Assembly (NCBI GenBank): GCA_036426205.1
Contig: WSYH01000085.1
Span: forward strand, 248,001-312,000
Reading direction: 5' to 3'
Length of the DNA stretch: 64,000 bases
DNA from: Ascaphus truei
Lineage: Eukaryota > Chordata > Amphibia > Anura > Ascaphidae
In this document: piece after piece, positions 6,273 to 64,000 of the stretch
Numbering within the stretch: position 1 is the first letter of the stretch
Layout: each line of letters opens with the position of its first letter
The notes under the pieces: generated by a model
Seen by the model: only the letters and a program-made list of their open reading frames with translations
The model's database searches: none
Told to the model about the DNA's origin: nothing
Translations under genes and position numbers: made by a program

Positions 6273-6273
6273 G

Positions 6274-7033: not shown

Positions 7034-7039
7034 CCGGTC

Positions 7040-41310: not shown

Positions 41311-41345
41311 TACTGATGGAGCGGCCGTTATTCGAACGGATCTCG
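41311..41345 (+). repeat. Forkhead-side terminal inverted repeat, copy 1
   Basis: Terminal TACTG, then GAGCGGCCGTTATTCGAACG. Compare TACAG..AAGCGGCCGTTATTCGAAT (copy 0), TACTGTCGCGGCCGAG with TTTATTC (51528), and CCGACACACTTTATTCGAGC (MITEs). Confidence 0.65.
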
Positions 41346-41692
41346 AATCAGTTTTCGTGTTGACCGCTGTATTCCATTCGGTATTTCCGCGTTTTGACCA
41401 CTATTCATGCCATGTTCACGCAATCCGGCACCGGGCAGCCACACGCGGTTGATCTGTTTAATTTAATGGTTTATTTTTTCTTTGAATGCAATTCTTCGCA
41501 TATCCGCCATGTGGCAGAGGTTAATGAATTATAATTTGGTTGCTATTCTTTGCGTATCCGCCAGGTGGCAGAAATTAATGCATTTAATGAATTGTTTTGA
41601 ATTATAATGTGCATGGTACAGTGCTACAGTATACAGTAATTTGCTACTATGTAAGGATGCAGGTGTTTAAAACAGATAGCACCCACGTCTAT

Positions 41693-44480
41693 GGAAAATA
41701 GCTGAAGCGCTCAAATGCAGGTATATCTCAAAATGATAATAAGCCAGACCACTGTACCAGGGTACTAACAATTGATATAGTACCTATTGTGTCATATAAT
41801 GGGTACTATCCTCCTGAAGACAGGTGGTGTGTGGTGCAACCCACTCACCATATGTCTCATTGGCAGGTTCCCCTGAAAAATATGCAAATACTCACATCCT
41901 GGTAGGGCAGGCAGGCAAGCTGTGCAGCTACTCAATGCAATACAGGGAAAAGGGAGACCAAAAAGCGCACCAGCACAAACGGAGCAGGACAAAAGAAAAC
42001 AGAAACAAAACAATGATATTTTAAAAGGGCACTTTATATGTGGCGCAAAAGACCCATCCAATGCATTCGAAAGTAGCAGAGTTCTTTTTTCAAGGATTAA
42101 AAACACAAGTGATAACATCCATTATTATACCCTCTTACCTTGGGCCATTTAGCTGCAAAATCAGAACTGCTGAACGTCATAACAGAGCGGACTCAGGCGA
42201 CTCAAGGCAAAAGGAAGTACCAAAGGCAGGACAGTGTGGCCCATTTTGGATGTGGGCAAACATAGGAACACCAATAACAAAGCTTTATTGACCATTCCGC
42301 AGAACAAATACATTGCCTGCTCACTGGACACAGCATTATTAAACGAAATAAAGCTATATTAAAACTAAACTAAATGCTAATAAGGGGGTACTATTATATC
42401 AGGGAAAAAACATGAACAAGGTGGATTAAAAAACTGCTGTGTTGCAACTAAGTTATATACAAAAAAAAAAGTTAAAAATAAAAACATTCTAGACATGATT
42501 AAAAAAATGTGCAAGAAAAGTAAATTTAAAGACATATTACACATACAATGCATACACAGATTGTGTACCTAAATCATAGGAACCAGGGAAATTAAACCAT
42601 TATAAATATGAAGTATTATCCACAGTAACATCAAAGAACAATTAAGCTATACATGATATGATAATAGGCATGATAAGGCCTAGGTTCAAAGGTTTAGATG
42701 ACAAGAATTAATGTCCAATATAATGAACATTGTCTTATTTAAATCTGTATTACCAAACTAATTACCATAATACATGTCATATCACAAAATTTGTTTACAA
42801 AAATGGTTGTTACGTTGCCAGTCCCTGTTCAAGCCCATAGGAAGCGCGTTTGCGAGAGTGAAGATCCAATACGCCTCCCTACGGTCCAGAAGGTTGATTG
42901 ATCACCTCCTCTGAGATTTAGCAAATAACTGATTCAATCCCACCAAAAAGAAAAATTCATTTAATCCTCCCTGACCAACCTTCAGTGATAATGTTTTCAG
43001 GACTGGATGATTAGTGTCTCTCAATTTTGTGAGCAAATGGATTTTAAATCCTGTAGCCCTTTAAGGGCTCTCTAGTCGTCCTCCACCCAATAACTCTTGC
43101 CCTAACAACCACATGTTATTAGATAAATCACACCAATTGACTTTTACAATTTATAAAACTGTTAATCTTAAATTCCTATTGTGGTAATATATTACACCAT
43201 GTGGCCGTGTGGCGGGCAAGCAAACTCTGGAGTAAAAAACTTGTTGGCAGGCTTAATGTGTTTACATGCCTACAAGAGCCTACATTGACAGGTGAACACT
43301 AGTGATTTAAAAAAAAAGTTTTTTTTGAGCACCAGAGATTTGATGTCACTAGTGTGATGAAACATGATGATCCAATTTGTATCCTCGCTCTACGAATACA
43401 AAACAGTGTAGGACCAGTATTGCCAAAACTATTTTTTAACGGACAGCGGTTCCAGGATAAGACATCCTAATCTGTTTGATAATTGATAGAGTTTACACTT
43501 TTCCACTATCGTGGTCAATCGTTTAACAAATTGTGAAATATAAAAATCAGGGGATATTGTGGTTTTTGATTCACTGATCAGATCCATGGTGTAAGTCACA
43601 ATAGATTTAAACTCACAATGATACACACTTCAACCATTGTTAAACAAGGCGCAAAGAATCTTCAATTGGATGTGGGGCACCAACAATGATGCTCTACTCT
43701 GGTACGTAATGATTATCAAAATGCAATGCCTAAATGTGATTTGGGGTATCCCCATTTCCAAACCATGCCCCTTGTAAGCTCCTCAAGAATGGAAAGGAAC
43801 AAACCACTCATAGTGGGAACAAATTCCTTCTCACAGCTTGAGGAAACTGTAACCTTGGGTATGGCCTTTATGACATGGATGGGTGGCAGCTGTCAGCCCT
43901 AGAAAGGTGTTCCTGGCATGTTTGCTTCCTATAAACAATCCGTTTGGATTTTTTTGTTGTGTCAGTACAAATAATTGTAGATCCAGTCTTTCTTGCACAT
44001 TTTTTTAAAACAGCTAGTTTTTTATCCACCTTGTTCATGTTTTTCCTTGATATAATAGTTACCCTTGATTAAGCATGTTTAGTTTAATATAGCTTTTTGT
44101 CGTTAAATATGCTTGTCCAGTTAGCAGCAATGTATTTTGTTATGCTGGAATGGTCAATAAAGCTTTGTTATTGTGTTCCTATGTTTGCCCACATCCAAAA
44201 TGGCCACACTGCCTTTGGTACTTCCTTTGCCCTTAGATCGGCACGAGTCGCTATGTTATGACGTCATCGGTTCTGATTTTGGCGCGAAATGGCCCACAGG
44301 TAAGAGGGTATATAATGGATGGTTATCACATTGTGTTTTATCCTTGAAAAGAACGCTGACGACGGTTCGAAATGCATTGGATGGGTCTTTTGCCACATTA
44401 AGGCCCTTTAATCATTTTTTGTTTCTGCGTTTTTTTCCTGCTCCGTTTGTGCTGGTGCGCTTTTTGGTCTCCCTTTTCCC
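41693..44480 (-). mobile_element. Penelope-like element with inverted arms, in copy 1
   Basis: Bounded by the exact 15-bp duplication AGCACCCACGTCTAT (41678-41692 and 44481-44495). Arms of about 450 bp (41960-42470 and 43990-44480) are inverted copies, both with the GTTTGTGCTGGTGCGCTTTT tail. The coding remnant is on the minus strand, for example LDRREAYWIFTLANALPMGLN (42830-42905) and HLLTKLRDTNHPVLK (42985-43050), the C-terminal part of a PLE polyprotein. Heavily decayed. A third tail copy is at 62835-62981. Confidence 0.82.
44355..44385 (+). ncRNA. Hammerhead-like core remnant in PLE arm
   Basis: CTGACGA (44356-44362) is followed after six bases by GAAA (44369-44372) and TGCATTGG, the order of a hammerhead core. 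Stem II is too short to form, so this is a remnant. The equivalent at 62835-62880 reads GAAACGCGTTGG but has lost CTGANGA. Confidence 0.4.
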
Positions 44481-44592
44481 AGCACCCACGTCTATACTGG
44501 TACATACTTACAGTGGCCCATTGTCAATTGACCTTGATTTTTCGAAGACATTATCAAATTAGGCATTCTTAATAAAAAGCTTTAAATACTCA

Positions 44593-45273
44593 ATGTGTGC
44601 CTTTTTCTTTCCCCGCACAATTGCTGAGCTGAGTGGACTTTATGGCTACACCACAGGCTATAAAAAACCTGACTGTAGTTATGCATTTTTAATATATTCG
44701 ACAATAAATGCTGCAGCAGATAAAATGGCGACTGTATCTGAAATATATGAATATTTAATTTCGAACTACGATTTTTACAAGTTTTCACCAGACGTTCATG
44801 GGTGGAAGCGTGCGATAAGAAAAACCTTAAGTAACGATCAGTGGGTTTTTTGCATTGCCCCTCCTGCTGGAGAGATTTGCGGGTATTGGGGTGTCATGCC
44901 AGAATTTCACAGTATGTTTGAACATGGTATTTTCAAAAGAAGAAAGGTCGGTTTTAGCCCATGTAAGAATCGTCAATCCCAATCCAGCTATGTGCCGACA
45001 AAAGCACCAGCACCAGCCGGTCCGACCATCAGTGATAACCTGGTGAACGGAAATCCTTTGTACCTGTCCCCGCCTAAATACCTAGAAAATGTCCAGCCTG
45101 AGCATGATTTCGCGTACAGGTACCAGCAAGCTTGCATTTACCAGTACCAAAATGATTTCCCGCTTCATCAGCTGTCAACTACAAGTGGACCAGGTCAGCT
45201 GTCACCTGTCAACTATAATGCAGACTTGAGGAGTCACAGTGAGTCATCACCTCCTGTTTGGCAAAGTTTATAA
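44593..45273 (+). CDS. Divergent forkhead (winged-helix) protein, best preserved copy
   Basis: 226-codon ORF. Residues 25-117 form a forkhead DNA-binding domain: KPDCSYAFLIYSTIN (helix 1), TVSEIYEYLISNYDFYKF (helix 2), GWKRAIRKTLSNDQWVF (recognition helix), GYWGVMPEFHSMFEHG and FKRRK (wing and C-terminal basic patch). The recognition helix differs from the usual NSIRHNLS: the Asn and His that contact DNA are Arg and Lys. The tail is rich in Ser/Pro and ends QLSPVNYNADL and SSPPVWQSL, conserved with copy 0. By comparison with copy 0 the original start is probably ATG 44642, with one base lost before KPDC, so the N-terminus here may be altered. It lies inside transposon copy 1 facing the BEN gene. 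Expected role: nuclear DNA-binding protein; target unknown. Confidence 0.85.
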   Translation: MCAFFFPRTIAELSGLYGYTTGYKKPDCSYAFLIYSTINAAADKMATVSEIYEYLISNYDFYKFSPDVHGWKRAIRKTLSNDQWVFCIAPPAGEICGYWGVMPEFHSMFEHGIFKRRKVGFSPCKNRQSQSSYVPTKAPAPAGPTISDNLVNGNPLYLSPPKYLENVQPEHDFAYRYQQACIYQYQNDFPLHQLSTTSGPGQLSPVNYNADLRSHSESSPPVWQSL

Positions 45274-45880: not shown

Positions 45881-47254
45881 GATAGAACAATTGTGAGCTT
45901 AATAGAAAAACTTATACTGTACACTGAACAGTATGCTGCTTTTATAATCTTCAAATCTTTTATTTACATTGTACAGTACTGTCATCTTCACAACTTTTTT
46001 TTATATACACCAAAAATAAAAATGTATATCTTTATTTCTGTACAGTATGTATTATTTATTATTCAATGCTTTCAACTTTTGCAACAGTACTACTGTTTTT
46101 CTTTTTCTGATATGCACATGCGTGTACTGCACTTTGTTGTATGTCTCATTTTGACTTTTTTTTTTAATAAAATGTAAGAGAAATTCCCTTGCATTAAATT
46201 ACAGTATGTGAAGTGCAATGCTTTGTTGAACTGTTGATAAGAATTTCAGGTCTGCAATAGGGGGTCGGTCAAAAAATACATTTTATTTTTTAATTCAAGT
46301 TTTACAAATATATATTTTTCGGGGTTTTTGCCATGGGCTTGCATAGCAATTATGGATATTATGAGATTCAAACAGTACTGTTGATTTTTAATTCCACACT
46401 AGTCATGTACGTTCTGTCCGAGGTGGGTGGCATACTGTAGTACTGTGATTTTTATTTGGGGGTGTGGGGATCAAAACATTATGATGACCAGTTGAGAATA
46501 TGTCTTTGAACTATAGCTTTGAACTTCATACAGCTCACACAGCTCGCACCCCCTCCCCCCCCCCCGCACACACACACAAGGCTCAAGGATTTCAACTTCT
46601 TATCAACACCTCTGACAAACCATGCACCATGCCACGCATGCGCAAGTGCGATAAGCTAAGCCCTTCTAACTTGACTTTTCTTCAACACAACACTCCCCCT
46701 CCCCCCCACTAGTAATAAGATTAACATGTTGTGTGAGATATAGGCTGAGCTAAGCAAGCCCTTCTAAAACTGCTATTGTACTGTAACATAAAAAGTCAAC
46801 TTGAAGTTCAAAGCTTATCAACAACACAACAGAGCCCTCCAACAGAGCCATTCACGTAAATGTACTGTTGTGTGATAATCATGAGCTGGGCAGAAGACAT
46901 GTTGGATAATCCTTAATGCAGGAAAATAGTATTTTTCTATAGAATTTTATTGCATTATAAACAGAAATAATTGATTAAACAATAAAAATATAATAATTTT
47001 TATAAAACATTTTTTGTTTTTCTATATATTTTTTTCCCAAACTAATGTGAAGTGCAATGCTTTGTTTGTTGAACTGTTCATAAGAATTTCAGGTCTGCAA
47101 GAGGGGGTCGGTTTAAAAAATAGATTTATTTTTTAATGCATAATACAGTACAAAAATACAATACAGTAGCTCTTGTCTTTCTCTTCGTTATGCATTGCAA
47201 GATGGGGGGAGATCGGGTAGAGAGGGGGCTGCAGCTCTGAAAATATAGTATTTC

Positions 47255-47890
47255 AAAAGATTTTTTTTAAAACAAAATTTTGGGGGGGCAAAAACAAATT
47301 TCTATACAGTAACTACTGAGAGAGGGTGGGAGAGAGGGGTTTGTGTAAGATACAGGCTAGTTTGTACATGAACACTGTATTATTATCTTACACACACCCC
47401 CCCCCCTTCCTTTTTTCATTGCGGCAGTTCTGAAAATGAAAAGAAACAATAAATGCAGACATGGTTAGTTTGAGTACCATACAGTACTTCCAGTGCTGTA
47501 AAGTGCCTGTATCATACCTTCCTGTGCCTGATTAACAGAAATAAATGATTAAACAATAACAATACAGTATTTATTTAAAAAGATTTTTTTTAAAACACTT
47601 TTTTTTGGCAAACACGAATTTCTATACAGTAACTACTGAGAGAGGGTAGGGGAGGGGGGTTTGTGTAAGATACAGGCTGGTTTGTACATGAACACCATAC
47701 TATTATCTTACACATCCCCCCCTTCCTTTTTTCATTGCAGCAGTTCTGAAAATGAAAAGAAACAATTAATGCAGACATGGTTAGTTTGAGTGCCATACAG
47801 TACTTACAGTGTTGTAAAGTGCCTGTATCATACTTACCTGTGCCTGATTAACAGAAATAAATGATTAAATAATAACAATATTTCAAAACA
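47255..47890. repeat. Tandem duplication, period about 319 bp
   Basis: Two copies of a segment containing CTGAGAGAGGGT, TGTAAGATACAGGCT and AGCAGTTCTGAAAATGAAAAG, about 95% alike. Confidence 0.85.
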
Positions 47891-47960: not shown

Positions 47961-49062
47961 CTACAGTAGATTTTGGGAAAAGTCATTAGCAAGAGGGTTG
48001 CCACTCCAAGCACGAGCCCTTGTATGCCTCAACAGGCCATTTATAGTGTCTCTCACAGCTCTCATAATTGTTGGGGTAACACGGAAATAACGCTCCACTT
48101 CATTCACAATGGTCTTTCTTAAATTTTCTGGCAGAGCCTTCTTTCTTTTATTTCCTTCATAATTTACATTGTGGGTCCAACGGCTGTACAAAACTGACGT
48201 GTGTTTAAATATTGACAGGGCAAATTTGTGGGCTGCACCAGCACTTCCAGTCTTATATTTCTCCCGGGTGTGCTGGGTCAGGTCAGTCAAGATGATGTCC
48301 GGCAGCGTTACAATCCTGGGTGCTGGTGTACTTCTGGCAGCGGGCAAGGGTAGGTGGTCTGGGAGGATGCTTTCCTCCTGTCATGGCCTTACCGGAGTTG
48401 TCATCTCATCTTCAAAGGCATACAGATGATCTGCTGATGGATGGGGTGGGCGTGGGGGGCTTGGTGAGGGAAGCGTGAAGGTCCCATCATGCAGGTCACC
48501 CTCCTGCTCCTGCGTCAGACATACTGGTACAGGGACAGGTAAGGAACTCGCAGGAAAAAATACATCCCTTACAATCTTCCTTTCCATCTTCTCCATGTTC
48601 CTTTCCATCTTCTCCATGTTCCTTTCCATTTTCTCCATGCGCATATCCATACTCAACATGGTCTCCAAAAGAAGATCAACCTTTTGATCTGTGCTGTAGA
48701 CATCTGCGTGGGTGGGTGGTGGAGGAGGTGACCAGGGGCTGGCCCGGAGAACAGCGTCGAGGATGGTTGGTGGAGCTGGTGATAAGGGGGTTGGCAGGAG
48801 AACAGCCTCAATGATGGGTTGTGGAGCAGGTTGGCAGGGGGTTGACAGGAGAGCAGCCTCAATGATGGGTTGTGGAGCAGGTGAGCAGGGGGTTGACAGG
48901 AGAGCAGCAGCATCGAGGATGGGTCGTGGAGCAGGTGAGCGGAGGGTGCAAGGAGAGGATCGGAACTCCACTTGATTTGCACTGTGCTAAGGGTGATAGA
49001 GATCAGTGCGTGAGAGTCTATGCAATTTGTCTCACCTTTTATTTGAAATTTTTCGAGGGCAT
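47961..49062 (-). pseudogene. BEN-domain coiled-coil protein, copy 1 (one stop codon)
   Basis: Read on the minus strand from about ATG 49062. There is a proline-rich region of four 17-residue repeats (LLSTPCSPAPQPIIEAA-like), a coiled coil of repeated KMERNME heptads after VDLLLETMLSMD, an acidic linker, then a BEN domain. BEN shows PDIILTDLTQHTREKYKTG, HKFALSIFKHTSVLYSRW, GNKRKKALPENLRKTIV and IMRAVRDTINGLLRHTRAR. A single TGA at 48381-48383, where copy 2 has a Cys codon, interrupts an otherwise continuous frame to TAG 47961. The N-terminal basic region of copy 2 is deleted here, so the first codons are uncertain. BEN domains bind DNA or chromatin factors; its role in a transposon is inferred only. 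Confidence 0.82.
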
Positions 49063-49245
49063 GGACACGAGGTGCAGGTGTTAAAAGTGGGCGTACTGTG
49101 TACTAATCCTGTCGAGTGACATTTAAGCACATTAAATTAAAGTATAAATACACCATCCTTTTTGTGTATTCAATGCACATTCAATACACATCGAATTCAC
49201 ATCGAATTGCTCTGTGTGTGCTCAGATTTTTTTTCTAACAGCAGC
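49063..49245. promoter_or_regulatory. Divergent promoter between BEN and transposase genes, copy 1
   Basis: 183 bp separate the start codons. The palindromic TATA-like word GTATAAATAC is at 49142-49151. ACGCCCACTTTTAACACCTG, read on the minus strand (49076-49095), is shared with 54035-54056 of copy 2. Repeated TCAATGCACAT/TCGAATTCACAT words (49170-49210) precede the transposase ATG. Confidence 0.55.
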
Positions 49246-49337
49246 GATGCCAAAGAAAAGGATTTCAAAAGATCTCAGCTTGAGAATAAATGATATGTAC
49301 CAGAATGGACACGGCATTTTACAGATCCAATGCTGGT
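49246..49337 (+). pseudogene. Transposase exon 1 of copy 1, cut by copy 2
   Basis: Starts MPKKRISKDLSLRINDMYQ and continues NGHGILQIQCWL, the helix-turn-helix N-terminus of a Tc1-like transposase (family pattern KELS.DLR.RIV.LH..G). Homology with exon 1 of copy 2 (53910 downward) stops exactly at CTGGTTA, where the end of copy 2 begins. The rest of this gene is predicted to lie beyond the right edge of the window. This exon is intact up to the break, whereas copy 2's exon has three stops. Confidence 0.75.
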
Positions 49338-50214
49338 TAAAGTGGCGGCCGATCTGAGTCTAAGTCGACTAGATCCGCGGCTTTCAGATTATCCCGGTTA
49401 GGTACGTTTTTTTGTCGTTTTCGCCCTTAGTGAACTGCGTTATTTTCGCGCTCGTGATATTAGCATTTTATTCTCGCTGTCTTCAATACTGCAATGCCGT
49501 GTAAAAACTCAGGGGGGCTTTTGCGAGCTGTTGTCTTGGAAGTCTAATACGTTCGCGGTTCAACCTACGTCAGTAGACAGTCTGTGTGTGCGTGCGCAGT
49601 AATTGTAAATTTGCATATTTAAAGTATACATGCATTTGCAGTGCTGTGCTGCTGTACAGTATGTCTCATTTGAAAATAGTTGAAACGCATAGGCGTGTAC
49701 AGTACTGTAACAGTGTTACATTTCTGCATATACAGCGCTCTCCCCTCGCTCAGGATAATTAACTGCACTGCAGGGTTTTTCAACTTCTTATCTTCTGTGC
49801 CTTGCAGTACATCTCTCCCACACCATTCCTTTGAACGTGTGTCTGGTTTCAACCACATTCCTGCTTGACAGCAGGAATTTACTGCGCATGCACCTCTAAC
49901 TTCGCCCACCACTGCTTGCTTGCCTGAGTGAGTGACCAAAAAAATGTAATTTTTTTTTTATTGTAATTTTTTTTTCTCCACAAGCCTGCAAAAACCATCT
50001 TACTGTATTACGATATTCAATCTGTGCTGTAGCTTTTGACTGCGACCCTGTGCGTTTGACTGCACATGGTTGATTTGTGTGCTTTTTACGTACTGTATTT
50101 GAGGGTGTATTATTATGATGAACTGCCTTTTGAAATTAAAGTATGTCTTTAGCTTTGAACTTCATGCAGTTGTACCCTGTAGCCCCCTCCCCCACGAACG
50201 CTAGCTCAAGGATT

Positions 50215-50800
50215 TCAAATTCCACGGAGTCGGTAATTTTCTGATTCTTGCCATTGTGTTCTTTAATCCGTCCATAGCTGAGCTACAAAACCTCAGTGCG
50301 CCTGCGTTTAATCCTTTTTGAGATGGGAGCTGCTTACTGCGCATGACTCACCCAACCCACCCCTCTCCACAGAGTCGTTAATTTACTGAATCTTGCCATT
50401 GTGTTCTGAATCCGTCCATAGCCGAGCTGCAAAGCCTTTTGAAATTACTGTACTCTACAGTACAGTATGTTATTTCTTTGAACTGCTGCACGACTAATCC
50501 TTCATCCCTCCCCAGGCACACACAAACTCTTATCGACAGACACCTCCACAGAGTCATTCATTTTCTGAAGTTAGTTAGTCATTTTGTTTTTAATCCGTCC
50601 CTAGCCGAGCGTAAATCGTCTCACTGTGCCTGCGTGTACTCTAATCATTTTAGAGATGGGAGCTTGCTGCTTACTGCGCATGAGTCACCCAACCCCCTTA
50701 CTCCACAGAGTCGTTAATTTTCTGAATATTGCCATTGTGTAATCCTCTTTGAGATGAGCTAGCTGATTACTGCACATGACTCACCCCCTTCCCCCCCAAC
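50215..50800. repeat. Degenerate tandem repeat, unit about 165 bp
   Basis: CACAGAGTCGTTAATTTTCT-like starts at 50222, 50370, 50548 and 50705, each followed by TCTTGCCATTGTGTTCT or a variant and TCCGTCCATAGCCGAGC. Confidence 0.75.
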
Positions 50801-51527
50801 CCTTTGAGGCTTAGTTTACGGTAACGCTTTGGAAATTCCCTTCTCGATTTTGAAATGTAAATCTGAGTTGCACAGCATTGTGAGAATTGAGAGTTAAAAA
50901 ACCATTAACTGATTCATGTTGTTTTGTCATTCATTCTTATTCATTGGTGTACTGAAGGGGTGGGGGGGTTTGTGGTTGTTGTCAATAATTATGATTAGCA
51001 GGAATGTGAATACATATTCATTTTATTTTATCAGGAACCAAAAAATACAAATATAAAAATAATCATGAATAATATATAATGCTGTCTTTATTAAGTCCTT
51101 CTGGCAGATTGAAATTGGATAAACATTTAGAAAACATTTGTAAAACATGGGAAAACATGAATAATGCACATTTATAAGAATATTATTTAATAATATATAC
51201 TGTAATGTATAATATATATATATATATAGTAATATTATTTTTTCATCTTTATCTTGCTCCTCATTCTGTGTACAGTACAGTAGCTCACTGAGAGAGGAGA
51301 GGTTTTGTGTACATCATTACTGCTGTTTATATACTGTACATTTGACTGTAAAAGCAGATTAGACTGGACACAACACCCCACCTCCCCCAGGCCACCCTTT
51401 TTCCTGAAACGACAAGAAAACAAAACATTAGTGCAGTTATGTGCGTACTGTATTATGGCATTGTGTGATGTGTAGTACTACTGTACATCGCTGGTGCTGC
51501 TTTCTCTGGAAAAAAAATTTGAGCAGT

Positions 51528-52111: not shown

Positions 52112-53910
52112 CTACTTTCCTGATGCTTGCCCATTTTGCGCGATGACAACGGGCAACACAGTGGCAATATGGTCTATATATTTATTGCAGCGTTCCACGG
52201 TGAGTACATCGTTCCAAAAACACATTATGCCTTTCAACAACTCGTCCTTTTTGGAGGGTTTCACCCCTTTCCGGATATGGTCCTTCAGCTGATGCCAGAC
52301 CATTTCAATGGGATTGAAGTCTGGCGGTCTGTCATTGGAAAAAAAAGGACAATTAGTTTAAGAGATACAGTACACAGTAAAAACAGTGGGGAAAAAAATG
52401 AAACACGGTCTACTGCACTTACTCCGCTGGCGTCTTCACCCAGTTGATACCGCGCTCCAGGATTTCCGCTGTTGACGTGGCTTGCTTCGGATCGTTGTCC
52501 TGGTAGAAGCAGTGACCATTGGGGAACTCGCGTGTGATGTATTGCACTATCTCAGGGACAATGTTGTCTTGGAAGAAAGCTTTATTCATGATTCCTATCG
52601 CAAGAAAAAATAAATGCTCAAAAAACTGCACAATAGTACAGTACAGTGCATACATTAAGGCTACACTAGTAAAGTACAGTGCATAAGGCTACGTTATATT
52701 TCATATATTTTACCTTCAAAGATGACAATGCATCCTGGTCCGCCTAGAGATGGCACCCCACACATGCAGCTTCACGGGGTGTTTTGGCCGTGGCTTCAAA
52801 GATATGCGGACTTTTTTGTGGAATGCAAAGCTTGCAAATCTCTCCAGCGACACAGTAGACTCGTCAGTGAAGATGCAATCCTGGAAAGTTTCCCCACTGT
52901 CGATCCATGCCTGGGCCTGGACCACTCTTTTAATTTTGTTTGCGTCCCTTATCATGGGGTACGCTCTGTAATGGCAAGGAATAAATAATTTTAGCGGTAC
53001 AGTACAGTTTCCTAAACAACACTTTTTCCTCCTGTACTGTCCAGTACTAACCTCACACGTCCATATTTCCATCCAATGCTGCGTCTCATCTTCTTTATGC
53101 TGGTCTCGGATACAGTGAGATTGTGATGTGCCTGCAGAGTGTATTTGACCCTTAATGCACTCTTCTCATCATTCTCCTCACTTATTTTATCCACCAGAAG
53201 AGTTGTCTCCCTAAAATGTAAAGAAAAACATTCCGGTAAGTAAAAATATTAGAGACAGTAGATCAACAGGATACAATATATTGTTCTATTAATATGCAGC
53301 AATATAAAACTGTTGTAATATAAATATAAATATACAAAATATATATACTGTTGTAATATAAATATAAAACTACAAAATATATACAGTATACTGTTGTACT
53401 ATAAATATGAATATACAAAATATATATCCTGTTGTAATATAAATATAAATATACAAACTATATATACTGTTGTAATATAAATATAAATATACAAAATATA
53501 TATATACTGTTGTAATATAAATATAAATATACAAAATATATATACTGTTGTAATATACATATAAATATACAAAATATATATACTGTTGTAATATACATAT
53601 AAATATACAAAATATATATACTGTTGTAATATAAATATGAATATACAAAATATTAGTTAAATAAACAAAATTATTAGATTTTTGGATCTAAATTTTTTTT
53701 CAAGTGTTATAAATATACTTACGCGTTAGTTACCCTTGGTGCCCTTTTGCGTTCTCTGTTTTTTCAGTGTGCATGATAGTTCACGGTGGTTGATGGCACA
53801 ACGAGGCCGGAAGTAGCTAATCAGCATTGGATAGCAGCAATTCGGTGTCCGCTCGTGTACATCTCCTAAATTCGCATGCTGAGATCCATGGAAATCTTTT
53901 TAACAACCAT
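52112..53910 (-). pseudogene. Multi-exon Tc1/mariner-like DDE transposase, copy 2
   Basis: Five exons on the minus strand join with GT..AG introns: 53910-53723, 53210-53052, 52965-52714, 52594-52423, 52328-52112. Exon 1 is an HTH start (MVVKKISMDLSMRI) with three stops. Exon 2 ends the DNA-binding region (SETSIKKMRRSIGWKYG). Exon 3 carries the first catalytic Asp (CIFTDESTVS) and KLHVWGAIS. Exon 4 carries the second (FYQDNDPKQATS) and GINWVKTP. Exon 5 carries the third acidic residue (DFNPIEMVWHQLK) and ends LPVVIAQNGQASGK. D2 to E spacing is about 32 residues. Joins are in phase (for example TTT GAA G/GA ATC ATG). A two-base loss in exon 3 after GAISR shifts frame, so it is not functional. 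It would cut and paste the element at TA. Confidence 0.85.
53276..53655. repeat. AT-rich minisatellite in transposase intron 1
   Basis: About nine units of 38-43 bp built on CTGTTGTAATATAAATATA with ACAAAATATATA. It lies inside the first intron of the transposase gene and so inflates that intron. Confidence 0.9.
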
Positions 53911-54067
53911 TGCTGCGAGTAGTAAGAAATACAAACACAAGAATGTATATTCGATGTTTAGTCGATGTGTATTCAATGTGCAGTGAATCCACAAAATGGA
54001 TGGTGTATTTATACGGTAATGACTCACATTAGAGTACGCCCACTTTCAACACCTGTACCTCGCTGCC
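53911..54067. promoter_or_regulatory. Divergent promoter between transposase and BEN genes, copy 2
   Basis: 157 bp between start codons. GTATTTATAC (54004-54013) is a symmetrical TATA-like box usable in either direction, 55 bp before the BEN ATG. TACGCCCACTTTCAACACCTG (54036-54056) and the TCGATGT/TCAATGTG words (53950-53985) are conserved with copy 1. Confidence 0.55.
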
Positions 54068-55539
54068 ATGCATAAAAGGTTACACACATTGCATAGCCCA
54101 CCACTCGATGATCTTTATCTGAACTCGCCCTTGTCCAGATTCTGCATTGTGCCACCTGCTTCCATGGTGCAACCCCGATTCTTCGGACGCAGGAACCCAC
54201 TCGCCTCTGCCGTGCCTGTCATGCAGAAAATGCAAAAGGCGGTTGTCGTTTCCACGCCAAGGCAAAAGCGACAGGCTAAGGCCAATAAAGAAAACCTTCT
54301 GCTGACCCCAAAGGCTAAGGGTTTTCATAGACGTCAGCCTTATTATGTCAAGAAGATATACGGTGATGTACTCTTGACGCAAAACGATTGGCAGCCAATC
54401 CATCGAACCCGCAGACCACTTCCTCACATACGCTTCAACGACTCTGCCGCCGCTGTCCCGGAAATCTTCAGCCCGTCTTCTCCACCCCTCATCCTCGATG
54501 CTGCCGCCGCCCTCCCGGAAACCCACAGGCCATCTTCTAAGGTTCTATCCGACGACGCTGCCGCCTCTGAAATCCACGGGTCACTTTCTCCTTCGCTCTT
54601 AGACGACTCTGCTTCTCGCCTGGAAATCCAAAGGTCACTTTCTCCATCCCTCTTCGACGACGCTGCCGCTTCTCCTCTACCGGATATCCACAGGTCACCT
54701 CCTCCACCCTTCTTCGACGTCGCTGCCGCTTCTCTCCATGGAACCCCCATATCATCCTCCGTTGCACCCATCCACCCAGATGTCCACACGCCATGCACAA
54801 GAAGCAGCTCGTTAGACCGGATGCTGAATGGGATACGTGTGGATCTCCCCGGGAACTCTATTGTGCTAGCAAAGATAGATTTGCTTCTGGAGACCATGTT
54901 AAATGTGGAGCAACGGATGCTACATATTGATCAACGGATGATACATATGGATCAACGGATGCTAGATATGGATCAACGGATGGATCGATGGATGGAGAAG
55001 ATAGAGGTTGACATAGCGGGTATACATCATTTGCTCAGTGTTAATGCCCCTGTTTCCCCGACGCCAGAGCAGGGGGTGACATGGATGTGATGAATGGGAG
55101 CATCGACCCCCTTCCATCACCAAGCACACCCCCTCCACCAGAAGATGTAGTGTACATGTATGCCGTTGAGGAGGACATGACAACCCCATCAAGACCATGC
55201 CAGGAGACAACACGGCAACCAAGACCGGAGGAAAGCTTCCTTCCAGACAACCTACCATCGCCCGTCGCCTCAAGCACACCCGCTCGCAGAAGACCTACAT
55301 TCGCTCACATCGATATGGTGCCCGACATCTCCCTGTACGATCTGCCACTGACGCTCAGGGAGAAGTGTAGGGTGATGAGTGCAGGTGCACCCCTCAAGTA
55401 TGCCTTGTTACATTTTAAGCAACATGTTCCCTACTCGTTGTACTGCGACTGGGCCTTCAGAGTGAACTACGATGGAAATCGCGTAAAAAGGCGCTTCCTG
55501 TCAATTTAAGAAAGAACATTCTGGATGAAATGCGGCGTT

Positions 55540-55989
55540 TGACAGAGTAAATAAAAGCCACCAGCTATATGCCTGGAAAACCTATGTCTAGTCTGCAGTG
55601 CAGCACTGAATAGGTTAACTTAAGCTGGGAACCTCAGGACAATTAGTTGGATCCCAGCTGTGTTAAAACCCCAGGCTGTAGACACATGGAGCTGGCTGTT
55701 GAGGAGAGAGGAGTAAGCTACTGGAGAGATTACTGATACAAGGTCTGTTATCAAAGTACATGAATTATGAACTGTCTGTCTCCTGCATAGAAAAGGGTAG
55801 CTGCCTGATTTTTACACTGTCTGCTAAAGAGAAACTGTTTTGTTTTGTCTGCTGAAGAAAAAGACATTTTTCTTTTTGTTTGCTGATGAAAAGCTATTTT
55901 TGTTTTTGTGTGCTGTATATCTTTTAAGGCTCAAAAAATAAGCCTTGTCACGAAACACGCGTGTGTAGTTGCATATACCCTGCTACATA
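55540..55989 (+). repeat. 5' LTR and adjacent primer-binding site of Gmr1-like element
   Basis: 450 bp from TGACAGAG to CTACATA. It lacks a 13-bp segment (CCTAATCAAAGTG) present in the 3' LTR. TGGTGTCAAGAAGTG at 55990 follows at once and resembles the complement of a tRNA-Leu 3' end (from memory), with one extra base. Confidence 0.88.
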
Positions 55990-56062
55990 TGGTGTCAAGA
56001 AGTGCTGGGATTTTGAAAAGCCCCTGAAGTCAAAGGGCCACACACACACATACACACAAGAA

Positions 56063-57474
56063 TGGAAAAAATTGAAGAATTTTTTTAAGAGTTTTTGTGT
56101 GAGCAGACCAAACAGCAGGGACAGTTAATGCAGGAACAGGCCCGGCTACAAGCAGAGAGAGATGAAAGATGATTGCAGCAGCAAACCCAGCTCCTAACCC
56201 AGCAGCAGGCAGAACAGGAGGAGCGAATGGCCAAGCTGCTGACCCAATTTCAGGGGTCTGCCAGTCCAGAACTTGCAAGCAGATCACCGATACTCCTGAG
56301 GAAAATGGCTCTGAACGAGAATCCAGAGGCTTTTTTACTGACATTTGAAAGAGTTGCGGAAGCTCAGGGCTGGGCTACAGATCGCTGGGCAACTGCTTTG
56401 GCCCCGATCCTCATAGGAGAAGCTCAGGCCTCATATAAGGGCCTCCCAGCAGATCAGGCAATGGACTACCGACAAGTAAAAGCCGCCATACTGGATCGCT
56501 TAGGTCTGACCCCAGAGACGTACCGGCAGTTATTCCGGAACATGAAGTACACCGCTAAGATGAGACCCCGGGTCCTCGCTCAGCGATTATTGGACTTGTG
56601 TATGCACTGGATACAACCCGAGGAGTGCACTAAGGAGGCAATTCTTGAGCAGGTGGTTTTGGAACAATTTCTACAAATAATACCCCCTTACGCATGCTCG
56701 TGGGTAAGACGCCACGCTGCTGAAACCCTAGCTTTGGCGGTCCGACTCGTGGAGAACTTCCTTGGGGCTGAGCAGCAGGCGAGTGTCCTGGACCCGACTC
56801 CACCGGCACTTGTGGATGCCCAAAGAGGGAGGTCGGATCAATGGGGAACCTACGGCCCGTCCATACGCAACCGCCAAATCCAACGGAAGGAGCAGTCATT
56901 CCAGCAAGGACAGAGTCCAAATGCTGGTCCCCGCCGAGACCCTCATCTCCTTCCGGATGTCGGCTCATCGCAAAATGAGAGAAACTTCCGAGGACGTCGC
57001 CCACAGGACCCACCAGATGCCTGGTCTCCAGTAACCGGTCCAGCAGAGCGCTATCCACAGCCCCCTCCTGCAAGGGAACCCTCTCCATGTTCCGCCTGCG
57101 GAGAACAAGGCCACCGGTATGTGGACTGTCCACAGATGGATTGTTCATTCAGCAAAAACGTCGCCTCGGCCTTTACTGGAGAAAATTACAAGCCCTGGCT
57201 ACTTCCAGCCCTGATTGGGGAAAGAAACGTCCAGGCCCTTGTAGATTCAGGCTCTGGGAAAACTCTGGTCCTCCAGGAACTGTTACCGCCTAACGTGTGT
57301 TCTTTTGACTCCCCATGGAGCATAGAATGTATACACGGCAATGTAAAACGCTATCCGATGGCCAAAATCTGGCTACAGGTAAAAGGTCAGGAGGCTTACC
57401 TCGAAGTAGGAGTCGCTCCTTGGCTCCCTGTCCCGTTGTGCTCGGTCGGGACTGGCCTTTCTTTTCGGACCTAA
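56063..57474 (+). pseudogene. Gag-protease of Gmr1-like element, with SCAN-like capsid domain
   Basis: Frame from MEKIEEFF with stops at 56087 and 56167, then open from 56173. A Gln-rich coiled region precedes the capsid. TPETYRQLFRNMKYTAKMRP, LLDLCMHWIQPEECTKEAIL, LEQVVLEQFLQIIPP and WVRRHAAETLALAVRLVENFL are clearly SCAN-domain-like, as expected because the SCAN domain of vertebrate zinc-finger proteins was derived from this gag type. The CCHC knuckle is CSACGEQGHRYVDC (57091-57132). The protease motif ALVDSGSGKTLV lies at 57235-57270. Confidence 0.9.
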
Positions 57475-59100
57475 TGGCCCCAGTCTTTCATGAGGAGCCT
57501 CCTTCTAGGGCTCACGAGAACCCTGGCAAACTGTTCCCCTTCTCGGCAGACCTTTTTCCCAGTAGACACCGGGTTCAAAAGACTCGGAAGCAATGACGCT
57601 CTGAAAAACAGGATTGGTTGCAGAAATCTGGGTCTCAAGGTGACCATTCTAATAGTCAGAGGTGATGGCTGCGGATGGCCAAAGGGAGGGGGATATGGGC
57701 CCTGGAGATTTACCAGACCTGTACCTCCCTGACTTTCACCAGAAGCAAAGGGAAGACCCAGTCCTTGCTAGACAGTATGACAAGGTGGTGAAAATTGATG
57801 AGCAGATTTTAGATGCACAGGGGTGATAGTATTCCCCCATTTTGAGCTATCAAAGGATATCCTATATAGGGTGAATAGGCAGACACACTAAGGGGAGGTC
57901 ACCAGACAGATATTTGTTCCCAAGGCGTTTGTTAAATCTGTGTTCACTCTAGCCCATTCTGTCCCTTGGGGTGGTCACCTGGGCATGGATAAAACATTGG
58001 ACCGTATTTCATCCCGATTCTATTGGCCATGGATGCATAATGATATTGCTAAGCTATGTGCGGCATGTCCGGAGTGCCAGCTAACTAGTCCATAAGGACA
58101 AAAACCAGCCCCTTTGGTTCCGCTACCCTTGGTGTCAGTTCCCTTTGAGAGGATTGGGGTAGACTTGGTAGAACCTCTAGAACCTTCTGCGAAAGGACAC
58201 AGGTTTATCCTTGTAATAGTTGATTATGCAACAAGATATCCTGAGGCGTTCCCCCTGAGAACAGCAACGGCGAAGCAAGTAGCCAAAAAGTTGTTGGAAC
58301 TGTTCTCACGGGTTGGACTTCCCCAGGTTATGTTGACAGACCAAGGTACAAATTTAATGGCTAAACTGATGCAGGATGTCTTAAAGTTACTAGAGGTCAA
58401 GTCTGTTCGGACATCGGTCTACCATCCACAGACTGACGGATTGGTGGAAAGATTTAACCGAACTCTAAAAGGGATGCTGAGGAAATTTGTAGAATCAGAG
58501 AAGAGAGCCTGGGATGAACTTCTCCCTTTTTTGCTGTTTCCAGTGCGGGAAGTTCCCCAGGCCTCCACGGGATTCTCTCCATTTGAATTGCTCTATGGCC
58601 GCCAACCCCGGGGTATTCTAGACCTCCTAAAGGAGTCCTGGGAGGAACAGTGGTCCCCTTCTAAGAATACCCTGCAATATGTACTAGACCTTAGGAAGCG
58701 CCTAGATGTGGTCGGCCATTTTGCCAGGGAGAATCTTAGATCAGTCAGGAGAGACATTACAATCAGAATGCTCGCATGAGAGTGTTTCACACAGGAGACC
58801 AGGTGATGTTATTGTTACATAGTTGCGAGAGTAAACTCCTGGCCAAATGGCAGGGCCCATTCGAAGTACTCCGCCGTACTGGTGATGTGGATTACGAGAT
58901 CGCTCAACCAGGGTCCAGGAAGGGTAAACAAATTTACCATGTGAACTTGCTGAAACCCTGGAAGATGCAGCAGTCTCTATTCATCCACCCGGTGGAGGAG
59001 GAAACGGACTTGGGTCCTCAGCCTCCACAGGAGAACATTGTGAGTGACGATAAAATCCCAATGGGTAAACAGTTGTCCTCTGAACAAAAAGGGGACTTGT
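57475..59100 (+). pseudogene. Integrase of Gmr1-like element (upstream of RT)
   Basis: The zinc-binding part HLGMDKTLDRISSRFYWP ... CAACPECQ is at 57970-58080, with a stop at 58093. The catalytic core is open from 58114: FERIGVDLVEPL (first Asp), VMLTDQGTN (second Asp) and HPQTDGLVERFNRT (Glu). The C-terminal region continues after a shift at 58776 with VFHTGDQVMLLLH, KWQGPFEVLRRTG and QIYHVNLLKPW. The 57475-57960 stretch is decayed. Confidence 0.9.
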
Positions 59101-60475
59101 TAGAAATAATTACACAATTCCATGATGTTTTTTCTGACTTACCAGGACAAACTAACTTAATATCCCATGCGATCGAGACAGCACCTGCGGTAAAAGTACG
59201 TTCCGTCCTTATAGGTTGCCTGAAAGTCGTAGGGCTCTGGTAGAGAAGGAGGTACAAGAAATGTTACACTTAGGAGTGATTGAGGAATCATGCAGTGAGT
59301 GGTGTAGTCCACTAATTATGGTCCCTAAACCCGATGGGAAGGTAAGATTTTGTGTGGACCTCCGAAAGGTCAATGCGGTATCCAAGTTTGACGCATATCT
59401 GATGCCAAGGGTGGACGAATTAATTGACGCCCTTGGTAATGCGGAAAAGGATACTGGCAAATACCCTTAGAGGAAAAGTCCAAATGAAAACAGCCTTTGT
59501 CACGCCCATGGGTTTATACCAGTTTGTGACAATGCCATTTGGACTGCATGGAGCCCCAGCCACATTTCAGAGACTCATGGATAAGGTACTGAGGCCCCAT
59601 AGGACTTATGCCGCAGCCTACCTAGATGACATTGTCATTTATAGTAAACACTGGCGGGCCCATCTAAATAGGCTGAAAGCGGTCCTCAAATCTCTAAGAG
59701 AGGCAGGGCTCACAGCCAACCCTAAGAAATGTGCATGGGTAAGGCGGAAACCAAATACTTAGGGTATGCAATGGGAGGTGAAAAAGTAAGGCCACTAGAC
59801 GACAAGGTAGTGGCCCTGAAAGAAGTTCCGACCCCCAAACAAAAATGCAGGTACGCTCTCTGCTTGGTTTAGCAGGGTACTACCGGCGGTTCATCCCCAA
59901 CTATTCGGAAGTGGCAGCCCCTTTAACGGACCTCACAAAAAAGTGTTCCTCTACACAAATGGTATGGTCAAGGGATTGTCAGAGAGCCTTTGAGGACATA
60001 AAAAGGTGTCTATCAGAGGGTCCCATCCTTAGAAGCCCAGACTTCAACAGCCCTTTCATAGTGCAAACAGATGCATCAGAGATAGGGCTAGGGGCAGTAT
60101 TGTCACAACAGTTTGAGGGAGTTGAACACCCTATAATTTTCCTGAGTAGGAAATTGTTCCCGAGGGAAAAAAACTACTCAGGGATTCAGAAAGAGTGCCT
60201 CGCAGTAAAGTGGGCAATCGAGGCTTTGAGCATTACCTGGCAGGAGTCCATTTTACTTTGGTGACGGACCATGCTCCACTGAAGTGGTTAAATAGTATTA
60301 AGGATTCCAATGCTAGATTGACTAGGTGGTATATGGCCCTCCAACCCTTCTCATTTGAGATTCAGCACAGGCCGGGAAAAGAGAAAGCAAATGCTGACTT
60401 CTTTTCTAGAGAAGGGGTGGATGGTCGGGCTTCAGCCGTGCGTAGCCCCAGCCACACACTAACAGGCGAGGAATG
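59101..60475 (+). pseudogene. RT and RNase H of Gmr1-like element
   Basis: RT begins FHDVFSDLPGQTNLISHAIE. After frameshifts, SRRALVEKEVQEMLHLGVIE, VPKPDGKVRFCVDLRKVN, FVTMPFGLHGAPATFQRLMD and YLDDIVIYS (about 59619-59645) are the standard palm motifs. QVRSLLGLAGYYRRFIPNYS is the RT end. RNase H has FIVQTDASEIGLGAVLSQQ and FTLVTDHAPLKWL. It ends at the 3' LTR with no chromodomain and no downstream integrase. Confidence 0.92.
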
Positions 60476-60939
60476 TGACAGGGTAAATAAAAGCCACCAG
60501 CTATATGCCTAGAAAACCTATGTCTAGTCTGCAGTGCAGCACTGAATAGGTTAACTTCAGCTGGGAACCTCAGGACAATTAGTTGGATCCCAGCTGCCTA
60601 ATCAAAGTGTGTTAAAACCCCAGGCTGTAGACACATGGAGCTGGCTGTTGAGGAGAGAGGAGTAAACTACTGGAGAGATTACTGATACAAGGTCTGTTAT
60701 CAAAGTAAATGAATTATGAACTGTCTGTCTCCTTCATAGAAAAGGGTAGCTGCCTGATTTTTACACTGTCTGCTAAAGAGAAACTGTTTTGTTTTGTCTG
60801 CTGAAGAAAAAGCCATTTTTCTTTTTGTTTGCTGATGAAAAGCTATTTTTGTTTTTGTGTGCTGTATATATCTTTAAGGCTAAATAAATAAGCCTTGTCA
60901 AGAAACCCGCGTGTGTAGTTGCATGTACCCTGCAACACA
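60476..60939 (+). repeat. 3' LTR of Gmr1-like element
   Basis: 464-bp copy of the 5' LTR, ends CAACACA, followed by the duplication GCGTT and the resumed BEN coding sequence. Confidence 0.92.
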
Positions 60940-61194
60940 GCGTTTTTATCCAATTACAGATCCTGTAATGAAAGGCGTTAGAGACTGCATTAATGGCGTT
61001 TTGCGCCATGCAAGGAATCGGCCATGGATGGACAATGTGATGGACTTTATGGCTTAATCACGGGAACTGTAAGACTATACTGTTGTGCTGAACTGTGCTG
61101 TACATGTTTTGACCTGCTGAACTTAAATAAAGGAGATGTTTTGACCTGCTGTACTGTATTTAACTTACTGCTTTAACTTGCTGTACACACACAC

Positions 61195-61310
61195 ACAGGA
61201 CGTGCACAATTCCAGTCCCTGAGGGCCGCAAACAGACACGGTTTTCAAGGATGTCCTGAAAACTGGGCCTGTCTGCTGCCCTCGAGGACTGTACTGGTGC
61301 AGGTCTGACT
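61195..61310. mobile_element. Foldback MITE, copy 1 (second copy at 61808-61920)
   Basis: TGCACAATTCCAGTCC..TGAAAACTGGGCC and CCTCGAGGACTGTACTGGTGCA form inverted arms around CCTGAAAACNGGGCCTGTCTG. An almost identical copy lies 613 bp downstream in a duplicated segment that also contains the AATAAAGGAGATG word. Confidence 0.7.
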
Positions 61311-61336
61311 GACTGTTTTGCACACCATCCACTGTA

Positions 61337-61626
61337 CTGTACACTGGCGACACACTTTATTCGAGCTCGGCTAGTCCCACGAATTCGGGTATACCCGGGT
61401 GTATTGAGGTTTGTGACTGTTTTCTGCCCGAGTGCATTGAGTTATTTTCCGGCAGGGATTGAAGCATTTTATTCCCACTGGCTGCAATACTGCACAGTAC
61501 ATATATATATACTGCATTACAATTCATGAATTTATGCCATCTGGTAGACACGCGAAGCATTGCAGCCTATTAAATCCTAATCATTATCATTTAACAGATC
61601 AGCCGCCCATCAGCCAGGCATGAACC
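61337..61626. mobile_element. Truncated copy of the 36417 MITE
   Basis: TACACTGGCGACACACTTTA start, then near-identical to 36417-36707 through CATCAGCCAGGCATGAACC, where it stops about 120 bp short of the second end. Inserted in transposon copy 2, downstream of the BEN gene. Confidence 0.85.
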
Positions 61627-62834
61627 TGTTGCGTTTTGTAAACTGTATTTTATGAATAAAGATTTTTTTTAATCACAGGTAAGACCATACTGTTGTGCTG
61701 AACTGTATTGTACATGTTTTGACCTGCTGTACTTAAATAAAGGAGATGTTGTTGTGTGTTTTTTAACTTGTATTTATACAGAAATGTTTTAACTTGCTGT
61801 ACACACACACAGGACCTGCACAATTCCAGTCCCTGAGGGCCGCAAACAGGCACGGTTTTCAAGGTTGTCCTGAAAACCGGGCCTGTCTGATACCCTCGAG
61901 AACTGTACTGGTGCAGACTGTTTTGCACACCATCCCACTGTATATGTTTTGACCTTAATAAAGGAGATGTTGCATTTTGTATATTTTATGAATAAAGAAT
62001 TTGCTTTTAAAGCATGTGACTGTAAACCATACTGACTGACTGTAAATGTTTTTACTTTCTATACATAAATGTTTTCACTACTGTAGCAGTAAACCATACA
62101 CCTGTTGATGTTTTGAATTGCTCTGCACTTAAAATGTTTCTACATTGTACAGTATTTGTAAATAAATGTTTTTGTACTTCACCAATAAAAGAACATGTTG
62201 ATTTGTTTTACATTGTTCCATTGGCTCCTTTGCTACTGTAACAAAATACAGTGTTTCTAGAATGTACACTACTGTACAGGCACACTGTACTGTATACTGT
62301 AGGCATGCTCAGTACAAGAGTATTAAAAAAAATAGAAGACACATACAGTACTGTTCTGTATGCACTGGCACTGTATAGAAGACACATACTGTACAGTATG
62401 TACAGTACTGTAATACATGTAGAATAAATGCATAGTTTTTATTTTTTTCGGGTTTATTACACAGTATACTGTTTATAAAAAATATTGTACACTGTACGGC
62501 CGGAAAACATCAGCATACTGTTTCAGGTACAGTATTCTATCCTAATTAATAACAACGGCCACAAAACTGTAGACTCCGGTACGTGGCTTTTTAAATCAGA
62601 TTCAGCAATGTGCATGCATTGTTACACAAAGTGATATTATCCATCGAAATCCCTCCATTAGCCACTTTCTTTTCTGAGGAAAAACAAAAAGAAAAGTTTT
62701 ACTGTAATGGTCTAAAGAAGTTCCCAGCCAGTCCCACCAATAATTTTCTCGGGGGGCAACTCCTGTTCACATGCGCGTGCGCATACCATGGATGTAATGA
62801 CACGCATATGCGTTTCAAGAAGGTTCCAAAGCGC

Positions 62835-62981
62835 ATGCGCTTGAAAAAGAACGTTGTGAAGTTCGAAACGCGTTGGATGGGTGTTTTGTCACATTAAAGT
62901 GCCCTTTTAATCATTTTCTGTTTTGGGTCCTTCCTGCTCCGTTTGTGCTGGTGCGCTTTTGGTCTCCTTTTTCCTCCAATT
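62835..62981 (+). mobile_element. PLE 3' tail fragment
   Basis: TTGAAAAAGAACGTTGTGAA..GTTCGAAACGCGTTGGATGG matches 44343-44480. It is flanked by GCATGCGC on both sides (62826 and 62986 region). A 5'-truncated insertion within copy 2. Confidence 0.7.
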
Positions 62982-63211
62982 TGCATGCGCCTAGCGTTCC
63001 ACCAATTGTTCAGTATCTGCAGTACAGTACTGTAGAAGCCGCTAAACCAATGATATTGCTTACAGGAGAATCGCTTGACTTTTGAATCGCACCGATATTG
63101 ATATTGTATTGTCAAAATAAAAAAAAAATACAGAAAATAATACGGCAACAATACTCACCATAGAATTTCCCATTCAGCTGGCGCCGGCGCCGGCGCCGGT
63201 CCACTGCCAGG

Positions 63212-63742
63212 TCAGTGTTCTTGATCATCCACGTTGATAGTTTGGAGCAGGACTTGTCCACCTGTAGTCAGCTGATGAGGCTGAAAATTGCTTAGGTACA
63301 TGCAAGCTTGATCGAAACTGCACGTGAAATCCGACTCAGTGTCAGGGTTGTCACTGACGGTGGGACCGTTATCGGAAGCCGGTGCCGGTGCATTGCTTGG
63401 CAGCGACTGTCGTTTCTTAGTTGGTTTTAACACGACCCTTCGCCTTTTGCCGTCTGCATGATCATAGATACTGGAAAAAGCCGATGATACACATCAATAC
63501 CCTCCAACAAATTGTGGCTCAATACGATAAAAACAGGGATCGCTACATAACCTTTTCCTTATTGCACGCTTCCACGTATGAGGAGCTGGTGAAAATTTGT
63601 AAAAGTCATAGTTTTCGATAAAATACTGATACATTTGAACAACTGTTGCCATCTTATCATCTGTTGCATTAATCGCGGCCCATATCAAATACGCGTAACT
63701 TCTGTCGGGTTTTTGGAAAACGGGCTGCACTTGAACACTCAT
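63212..63742 (-). pseudogene. Divergent forkhead gene, copy 2 (single stop at a conserved Trp)
   Basis: Minus strand, start MSVQVQPVFQKPDRSYAYLI. Forkhead helices are INATDDKMATVVQMYQYFIE, NYDFYKFSPAPHTWKRAIRK and RLCSDPCFYRIEP. The wing GYW is changed to GY-stop by TGA at 63494-63496. The same frame then continues for 94 codons (AFSSIYDHADGKRRRV) to the end DDQEH at 63212. The recognition helix again has RAIRK instead of NSIRH. The C-terminal tail is diverged from copies 0 and 1 and runs toward a GGCGCC repeat (63178-63200). Confidence 0.85.
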
Positions 63743-64000
63743 GGCGGGTGGCGGGTCTCTGGAGAATACTGTAACCGTAACTGGTCTTTGTCTTTCTTTA
63801 ATATGAAAAGCCTAAATTGATACATTTTTGCAACCTCTTCCTTCAGTCTCAAGGCCAAGTTACAATAGCACACTGTGGTATCTTTTTTAAACGAAACACC
63901 TGCAAGTCGACACATTACTGAAGCACATGCGCATTACAATTCATGAATATCTGCCATCTGGCGGACACGCGAAGAATTGCAACCTATTAAATCCGAACCA
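63740..64000 (-). promoter_or_regulatory. Upstream region of forkhead gene and subterminal part of copy 2
   Basis: Colinear with 41487-41690 plus 44496-44640 of copy 1: the subterminal motif GCAATTCTTCGCGTGTCCGCC (minus), CAGGTGTTT..AAAA.GATA, and ACCTTGA..ATTAGGC near the start. No TATA box is obvious. The terminal repeat itself is outside the window. Confidence 0.55.

Follow-up and report, generated by a model that had tools for sequence, protein, structure and literature searches.

Transposons of the Tc1 type are thought to be minimal, with one transposase between two ends, and members of the Tc1/mariner superfamily usually carry a single transposase gene in 1-2.5 kb. A stretch of 64,000 nucleotides from the frog Ascaphus truei (contig WSYH01000085.1; C15145:248001-312000 in our numbering) raises the question of whether such an element can also hold genes for DNA-binding proteins of animal type. 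This whole stretch is here called the window, and positions without a prefix are counted from its first letter. An earlier note on the window had described, at 41311-64000, two copies of a transposon with forkhead, BEN-domain and Tc1-like transposase genes. We followed this up in the genome, searching 2.82 Gb in 19,235 contigs; L-numbers denote genome loci fetched around matches and P-numbers denote relatives in the protein database. We find that the element is genuine and has been mobile, and that its forkhead content is solid. What the window contains is very probably a Tc1/mariner-type family, about 7.7 kb long when free of insertions, with a forkhead gene, a gene encoding a coiled-coil protein (gene 2) and a five-exon DD32E transposase of the DDE class between one pair of short inverted ends. 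Its anatomy recurs from copy to copy, TA lies on both sides, many copies are dispersed in the genome and one copy has inserted into another.

The cleanest copy was found outside the window, at L039 (contig C4), a locus picked among 8 triples of the three genes for the closest gene spacing. Its ends, at positions 505 and 8232 of the locus, are identical in 25/25 bases, have TA outside both and enclose 7,728 bases free of large insertions. Between them lie the forkhead gene at 999-1610 (+), a frame of 213 amino acids with no stop, gene 2 at 3896-2628 (-) and five transposase exons at 4090-5836 (+). The order of the element is therefore read as terminal inverted repeat, forkhead gene, convergent gene 2, divergent five-exon transposase and terminal inverted repeat. 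The same three genes in the same order as in copy 1 of the window were found at L033 (contig C3), the third entry of the forkhead list described below, retrieved without knowledge of any gene 2 position. Here the forkhead gene is at 945-1559 (+), gene 2, which lacks its C-terminal part, at 5823-4934 (-) and all five transposase exons at 6087-7871 (+); L033 agrees with copy 1 at 91-95% in long matches and also holds other insertions. Both ends were seen in three copies, namely L039 and copies 1 and 2 of the window; in L033 and in two young copies the right end is hidden by other insertions.

The linkage was evaluated over the genome by comparing, within 10 kb, the lists of matches to three queries from copy 1, each list being the best 150 of the first-look candidates (17,422 for the forkhead gene, 10,215 for gene 2 and 8,526 for transposase exon 3). 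In these lists 32/33 forkhead-gene 2 pairs are convergent, the window's own pair included, 34/35 gene 2-transposase pairs are divergent, and 18/19 forkhead-transposase pairs have the transposase downstream on the same strand. The full order is kept by 7 of the 8 triples, and chance would give about 0.04 pair per arrangement. A forkhead element lying next to a gene 2-transposase element could also bring the three genes together, and a third, truncated copy in the window (see below) has the forkhead end and gene, with no gene 2 or transposase found beside them. In L039, however, a single pair of identical ends encloses all three genes, copy 2 moved into copy 1 as one unit, and order and orientation recur at many loci. 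We consider two separate elements very improbable, contradicted as they are by L039 and copy 2.

Several observations weigh against a three-gene element. Every copy read closely has broken frames, and L039 itself is not intact, the matches to its gene 2, exon 3 and exon 5 being spread over more than one frame in each case. In each best-150 list the majority of places are unpaired with the other two, perhaps owing to the cut at 150 and perhaps not. Concerning the loci around young transposase copies (L029-L032), gene 2 is divergent from the transposase in all four, but the sequence retrieved past gene 2 at L030, L031 and L032 (4.7, 7.5 and 5.8 kb) showed no forkhead match; L029, which breaks off within gene 2, is uninformative on this point. 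The forkhead gene missing at L030-L032 may point to a subfamily without it, or it may be hidden by insertions and truncation. An end-like sequence at about 3324 of L032 was considered as the end of a two-gene element and set aside; because it may belong to a small unrelated element, no two-gene element with defined ends is claimed. The earlier proposal that the forkhead gene, the second gene and the transposase lie between one pair of ends is thus upheld by L039 and by the repeated linkage, and is qualified by the three young loci.

In the window, the left end of copy 1 is where it had been placed: a TA duplication at 41311-41312 is followed by the left terminal inverted repeat at 41313-41337 (+). 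This repeat equals, in 23/25 bases, the inverted right end found at C15145:317069 (window coordinate 69069), with TA directly after. An insertion at 41693-44480, whose inverted arms (41945-42443 and 44007-44480) are 84% alike, is absent from L033, where the flanking sequences on either side match copy 1. Copy 2 (49340-64000, -) lies in copy 1 in the opposite orientation. Its right end is at 49340 and its left end, which the earlier note had advised seeking past 64000, was located at C15145:312154 (window coordinate 64154), 154 bases beyond the window. The match to copy 1 breaks off inside transposase exon 1, whose first part occupies 49247-49339 (+) and is cut at the TA at 49338-49339; copy 2 starts at 49340. 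In L037, the 5 kb beyond the window, TACTTGC resumes exon 1 of copy 1 after the end of copy 2 and exons 2-4 follow, with a 92% match between L037 257-1734 and L033 6180-7623. When the flanks of copy 2 were joined with one TA and compared with the uninterrupted exon 1 of L033, 159/170 columns were identical with no gaps; since the joined flanks align in this way, copy 2 inserted into copy 1 at a TA, which became duplicated. Aligned with each other, the ends of copy 2 gave nothing above chance and are poor repeats.

The opposite orientation of the two copies, as first described, therefore holds, but their side-by-side layout is ruled out by the nesting at a duplicated TA. Of the transposase ascribed to copy 1, the window contains only the start of exon 1; exons 2-4 lie beyond the window end and exon 5 was not found in this copy. 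Sequence similarity between copies 1 and 2 covers the forkhead gene, gene 2, the divergent promoter and transposase exon 1, and the description of a homologous gene set with the same order and relative strands is confirmed, a convergent gene 2 and a divergent Tc1-like transposase being seen in each. The count of two copies had overlooked copy 3, a truncated copy at 37275-39431 (-), with its left end at 39429 after the TA at 39430-39431 (end sequence CGGCCGTTATTCG), a broken forkhead gene at 38974-38330 (-) and the region downstream, all matching copy 1. Stops, frame breaks or insertions are present in all three window copies.

The transposase of copy 2 spans 52112-53910 (-), with inferred exons at 53910-53723, 53210-53052, 52965-52714, 52594-52423 and 52328-52112; stops interrupt exon 1, and the frame of exon 3 is broken. 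Over about 60% of the query it is 85-87% identical to two proteins of Ascaphus truei, and 14 of the best 150 exon 3 copies are identical to one Ascaphus protein (P0002) over 84 residues. A close relative, P0003, scores 49.9 bits against the DDE_3 cut-off of 28.6 bits; exon 5 of the window alone (23.6 bits) and P0002 (13.8 bits) stay below this cut-off. The spacing between the second D and the E is 32 in the spliced exons of L036 and in P0003, P0004, P0007 and P0009, and 34 in P0006, P0011, P0012, P0014, P0015 and P0016. The family resembles Tc1/mariner elements (IS630-Tc1-mariner; QDNDPKH..TPAESPDxNPIE group) in being flanked by TA, in its short inverted ends and in a DDE transposase with Tc1 motifs, and Tc1-like relatives in fish and elsewhere (P0003-P0007 and P0009) are 44-57% identical over at least half of the query. 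It differs from them in its two further genes, its five exons and its length of 7.7 kb. The TA target-site duplication is seen where copy 2 entered copy 1, with the empty site aligned, and outside both ends of copy 1 and of L039, and terminal inverted repeats are present in L039 and copy 1 as given above. A TA-inserting family of Tc1 type with a multi-exon transposase, as had been suggested from the window alone, is supported by the copy 2 insertion, the L039 ends and the five exons.

Forkhead genes had been reported in both copies, and each exceeds the cut-off of the Pfam forkhead family PF00250 (27 bits). In copy 1 the frame, open from stop to stop, lies at 44563-45270 (+) and matches with E 1.4e-13 (51.2 bits); in copy 2 the gene lies at 63215-63811 (-), with E 4.7e-14 (52.7 bits) on 63497-63811 and an in-frame stop after the domain start. 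The best PDB match of the copy 1 protein is FOXL2 (E 3.5e-12), to which it aligns across the whole domain, and a protein search with it returned 50 candidates, none at E <=0.001. Unlike the FOX transcription factors of the host, as represented by the eight domains fetched, the transposon lineages carry two additional residues ahead of the recognition helix and have a high copy number.

It could be asked whether these are host forkhead and BEN genes that happen to lie near transposase copies, as both are host gene families in this genome; ordinary single-copy loci of this kind were among the results that the earlier note had named as overturning its reading. The forkhead gene is instead a dispersed repeat, from whose candidates the best 150 were scored, and so are gene 2 and the transposase. 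Moreover, the eight host forkhead domains group apart in a tree of 21 rows (support 98/99), and the BEN domain was found at 6 places in the genome, none of them among the gene 2 places listed. Contradicted by copy number and ends, the host-gene explanation is extremely improbable. In the same tree the rows of a transposon lineage cluster together wherever it has more than one, and long branches meet; the 21 domains do not decide for or against a shared origin of the forkhead lineages of Tc1 type and of the second type described below. Two further loci fetched around forkhead matches stand apart from these lineages: L020 1868-2509 represents a divergent forkhead-like lineage and L028 1968-2219 a decayed, host-like forkhead domain, and no Tc1 or Harbinger transposase match was found at either locus.

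Gene 2 of copy 1 occupies 47964-48986 (-), with one in-frame TGA at 48381-48383, and has counterparts in copy 2, L029-L033 and L039. In copy 2 its N-terminal and middle parts lie at 54068-55509 (+) in two frames, 54068-55090 and 55081-55509, which match L029-L032, and its C-terminal end lies at 60938-61057 (+), matching L032 5578-5943; the parts are separated by a retrotransposon with long terminal repeats (LTRs) at 55540-60937 (+), whose LTRs (55540-55987 and 60476-60937) are 93.9% alike and which, from its frames, we take to be of gypsy type. The divergent promoter region of copy 1 (48987-49246) is 92% identical to L033 and L039, and 48995-49339 matches copy 2 54119-53818 at 67%.

Gene 2 had been called a BEN gene, an assignment that is not supported. 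The BEN family PF10523 gave no match to gene 2 of copy 1, L030 or L032, and the 6 places that it recognized genome-wide (four in one 745-residue frame) were never among the best-150 gene 2 places. The gene 2 domain gave no match to PDB sequences, and a further search gave three hits at chance level. When gene 2 was aligned by hhalign with four PDB BEN domains, one segment of 31 columns was returned, with probability 1.1 and E 0.048, and 3/60 column shuffles equalled it. Structural models of gene 2 are helical, with mean pLDDT 52 and 48, and of their 70 Foldseek matches at E <=10 none reached 0.001. A BEN identity thus lacks Pfam, PDB or fold support, and we describe the protein by coiled-coil-like repeats, seen in its sequence, and a probably helical C-terminal domain of no assigned family. 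A protein search with gene 2 found one match at E <=10, the Ascaphus truei protein P0021 (LOC142465264), 70% identical over 31% of the query. In this protein several N-terminal repeats resembling transposase exon 2 precede the gene 2 match.

Forkhead genes are also found beside a transposase of another superfamily. Among 20 loci fetched around repeat hits to the Pfam forkhead family, 14 (L010, L012-L015, L017-L019, L021-L024, L026 and L027) have downstream, encoded on the opposite strand, a transposase of PIF/Harbinger type; none of the matches listed is in another orientation. The transposase scores 41.2 bits at L010 and 50 bits at L026, against a DDE_Tnp_4 cut-off of 24.8 bits, and the forkhead domains at these loci are mostly about 40% identical to that of the window. 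PIF/Harbinger elements consist of a transposase and a Myb-like DNA-binding protein, and the association of a forkhead gene with a transposase recalls this two-gene habit. However, the two transposases are unrelated (DDE_Tnp_4 versus DDE_3), and the window element inserts at TA.

What, then, might the forkhead gene do for the element? From established Tc1 biology, the transposase would bind the ends and move the element by cut and paste. A tentative reading, short of probable, is that the element employs the forkhead protein, which would bind the element's own DNA and help to open the element or express its genes, much as a Myb-like second protein serves Harbinger elements. That gene 2 encodes a partner of the forkhead protein is our guess. 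Both the production of the forkhead protein and its binding to the element are predictions, which counts against this role.

Selection was estimated as the ratio of non-synonymous to synonymous substitutions (dN/dS) by a simple counting method without a significance test. For the forkhead gene, copy 1 compared with L033 gave 0.45 (205 codons), and comparisons with copy 2 were saturated. Gene 2 gave 0.31 for copy 1-L030, 0.27 for copy 1-L032 and 0.66 for L030-L032 (L032 being partly out of frame). Exon 3 gave 0.17 for copy 1-L031, 0.23 for copy 1-copy 2 and 0.10 for copy 2-L031, and 0.42-0.58 in comparisons with the frame-broken exon 3 of L033. In the Harbinger lineage, more distant forkhead pairs have values mostly of 0.3-0.7, with 0.23-0.57 for many pairs between subgroups; near copies range from 0.5 to 2.41, which is again a point against a working role. 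The forkhead values fit some constraint, short of proof of function.

These values also bear on the possibility that the forkhead gene is passive cargo, which a gene 2-transposase element picked up a single time and has copied ever since without benefit. Such trapping would agree with the three young gene 2-transposase loci without a forkhead match in the fetched flank, with the frames broken in many forkhead copies of the genome, and with a forkhead dN/dS of 0.45 above the 0.10-0.23 of the transposase exon in unbroken comparisons. However, dN/dS is below 1 for copy 1-L033 and for many of the more distant subgroup pairs of the Harbinger lineage, and the presence of a forkhead gene beside an unrelated transposase type as well is explained less well by chance trapping. 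We regard passive cargo as unlikely, although it deserves serious weight. An improbable alternative is that the forkhead protein picks where the element inserts, by directing the transposase towards host promoters that are open; its sole support is that forkhead proteins bind closed chromatin.

Returning to a forkhead protein that works for its element, the two associations together make it conceivable, though doubtful, that vertebrate cut-and-paste transposons possess forkhead genes as permanent, functional components. These genes may have entered or passed between the Tc1-type and Harbinger-type superfamilies and act there as the elements' own regulators of chromatin or transcription. If such a family spreads many copies of an animal transcription factor, mobile DNA delivers to a genome a gene-control protein of its own. 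New regulatory proteins and binding sites could arise from such an element, and it offers a natural setting in which to ask how silencing is evaded by DNA transposons; the many forkhead-like frames left in the frog genome can also mislead gene annotation. Among the papers listed by full-text searches of the openly available literature, we found no description of a Tc1 or Harbinger element carrying forkhead or BEN genes, a scope that leaves out most subscription journals and all preprints. The available part of one article names Tc1 and Harbinger among the classes present across the frogs, with no mention of such cargo (PMC12822217). Among multi-gene DNA transposons, a close parallel is Teratorn, a piggyBac-herpesvirus fusion in medaka, which the available part of its source presents as a cut-and-paste element with many genes (PMC10175614). 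Teratorn, however, is 180 kb long and partly viral, whereas no viral genes turned up in the window element, where no search was aimed at them.

Other features of the window and of these loci were recorded as well. The region downstream of the transposase (L037 2090-4799 and L039 5837-7490) is an inverted copy of the interval between the forkhead gene and gene 2 (window 46206-47850), at 82-88% identity within copy 1 and between L039 and copy 1. A repeat of about 400 bp, 93-98% identical between copies, occurs at 36416-36821 and 61340-61626 in the window, at L031 3103-3495 and at L032 5019-5420; its inner part matches the left end of the forkhead element, and it is possibly a short non-autonomous relative. 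The motif CCGCCAnnTGGC, which we presume resembles the core site of CTCF, recurs close to the left end in forkhead copies, at 41504 and 41558 (+) and at 39246 and 63953 (-) in the window, at 592 in L033 and at 667 and 720 in L039; all four matches to this pattern within the 64 kb lie near such ends. Inside copy 2, a small element with TA on both sides occupies 51530-51889, and L035 has the sequence without it and with a single TA; in intron 1 of the copy 2 transposase, 53301-53653 is an array of 9 copies of a 38-bp tandem repeat. Rfam gave no match. Elsewhere in the window, 21818-23745 contains frames of 365 and 270 amino acids, which look, as we take it, like a Penelope-like reverse transcriptase with a GIY-YIG-type end.

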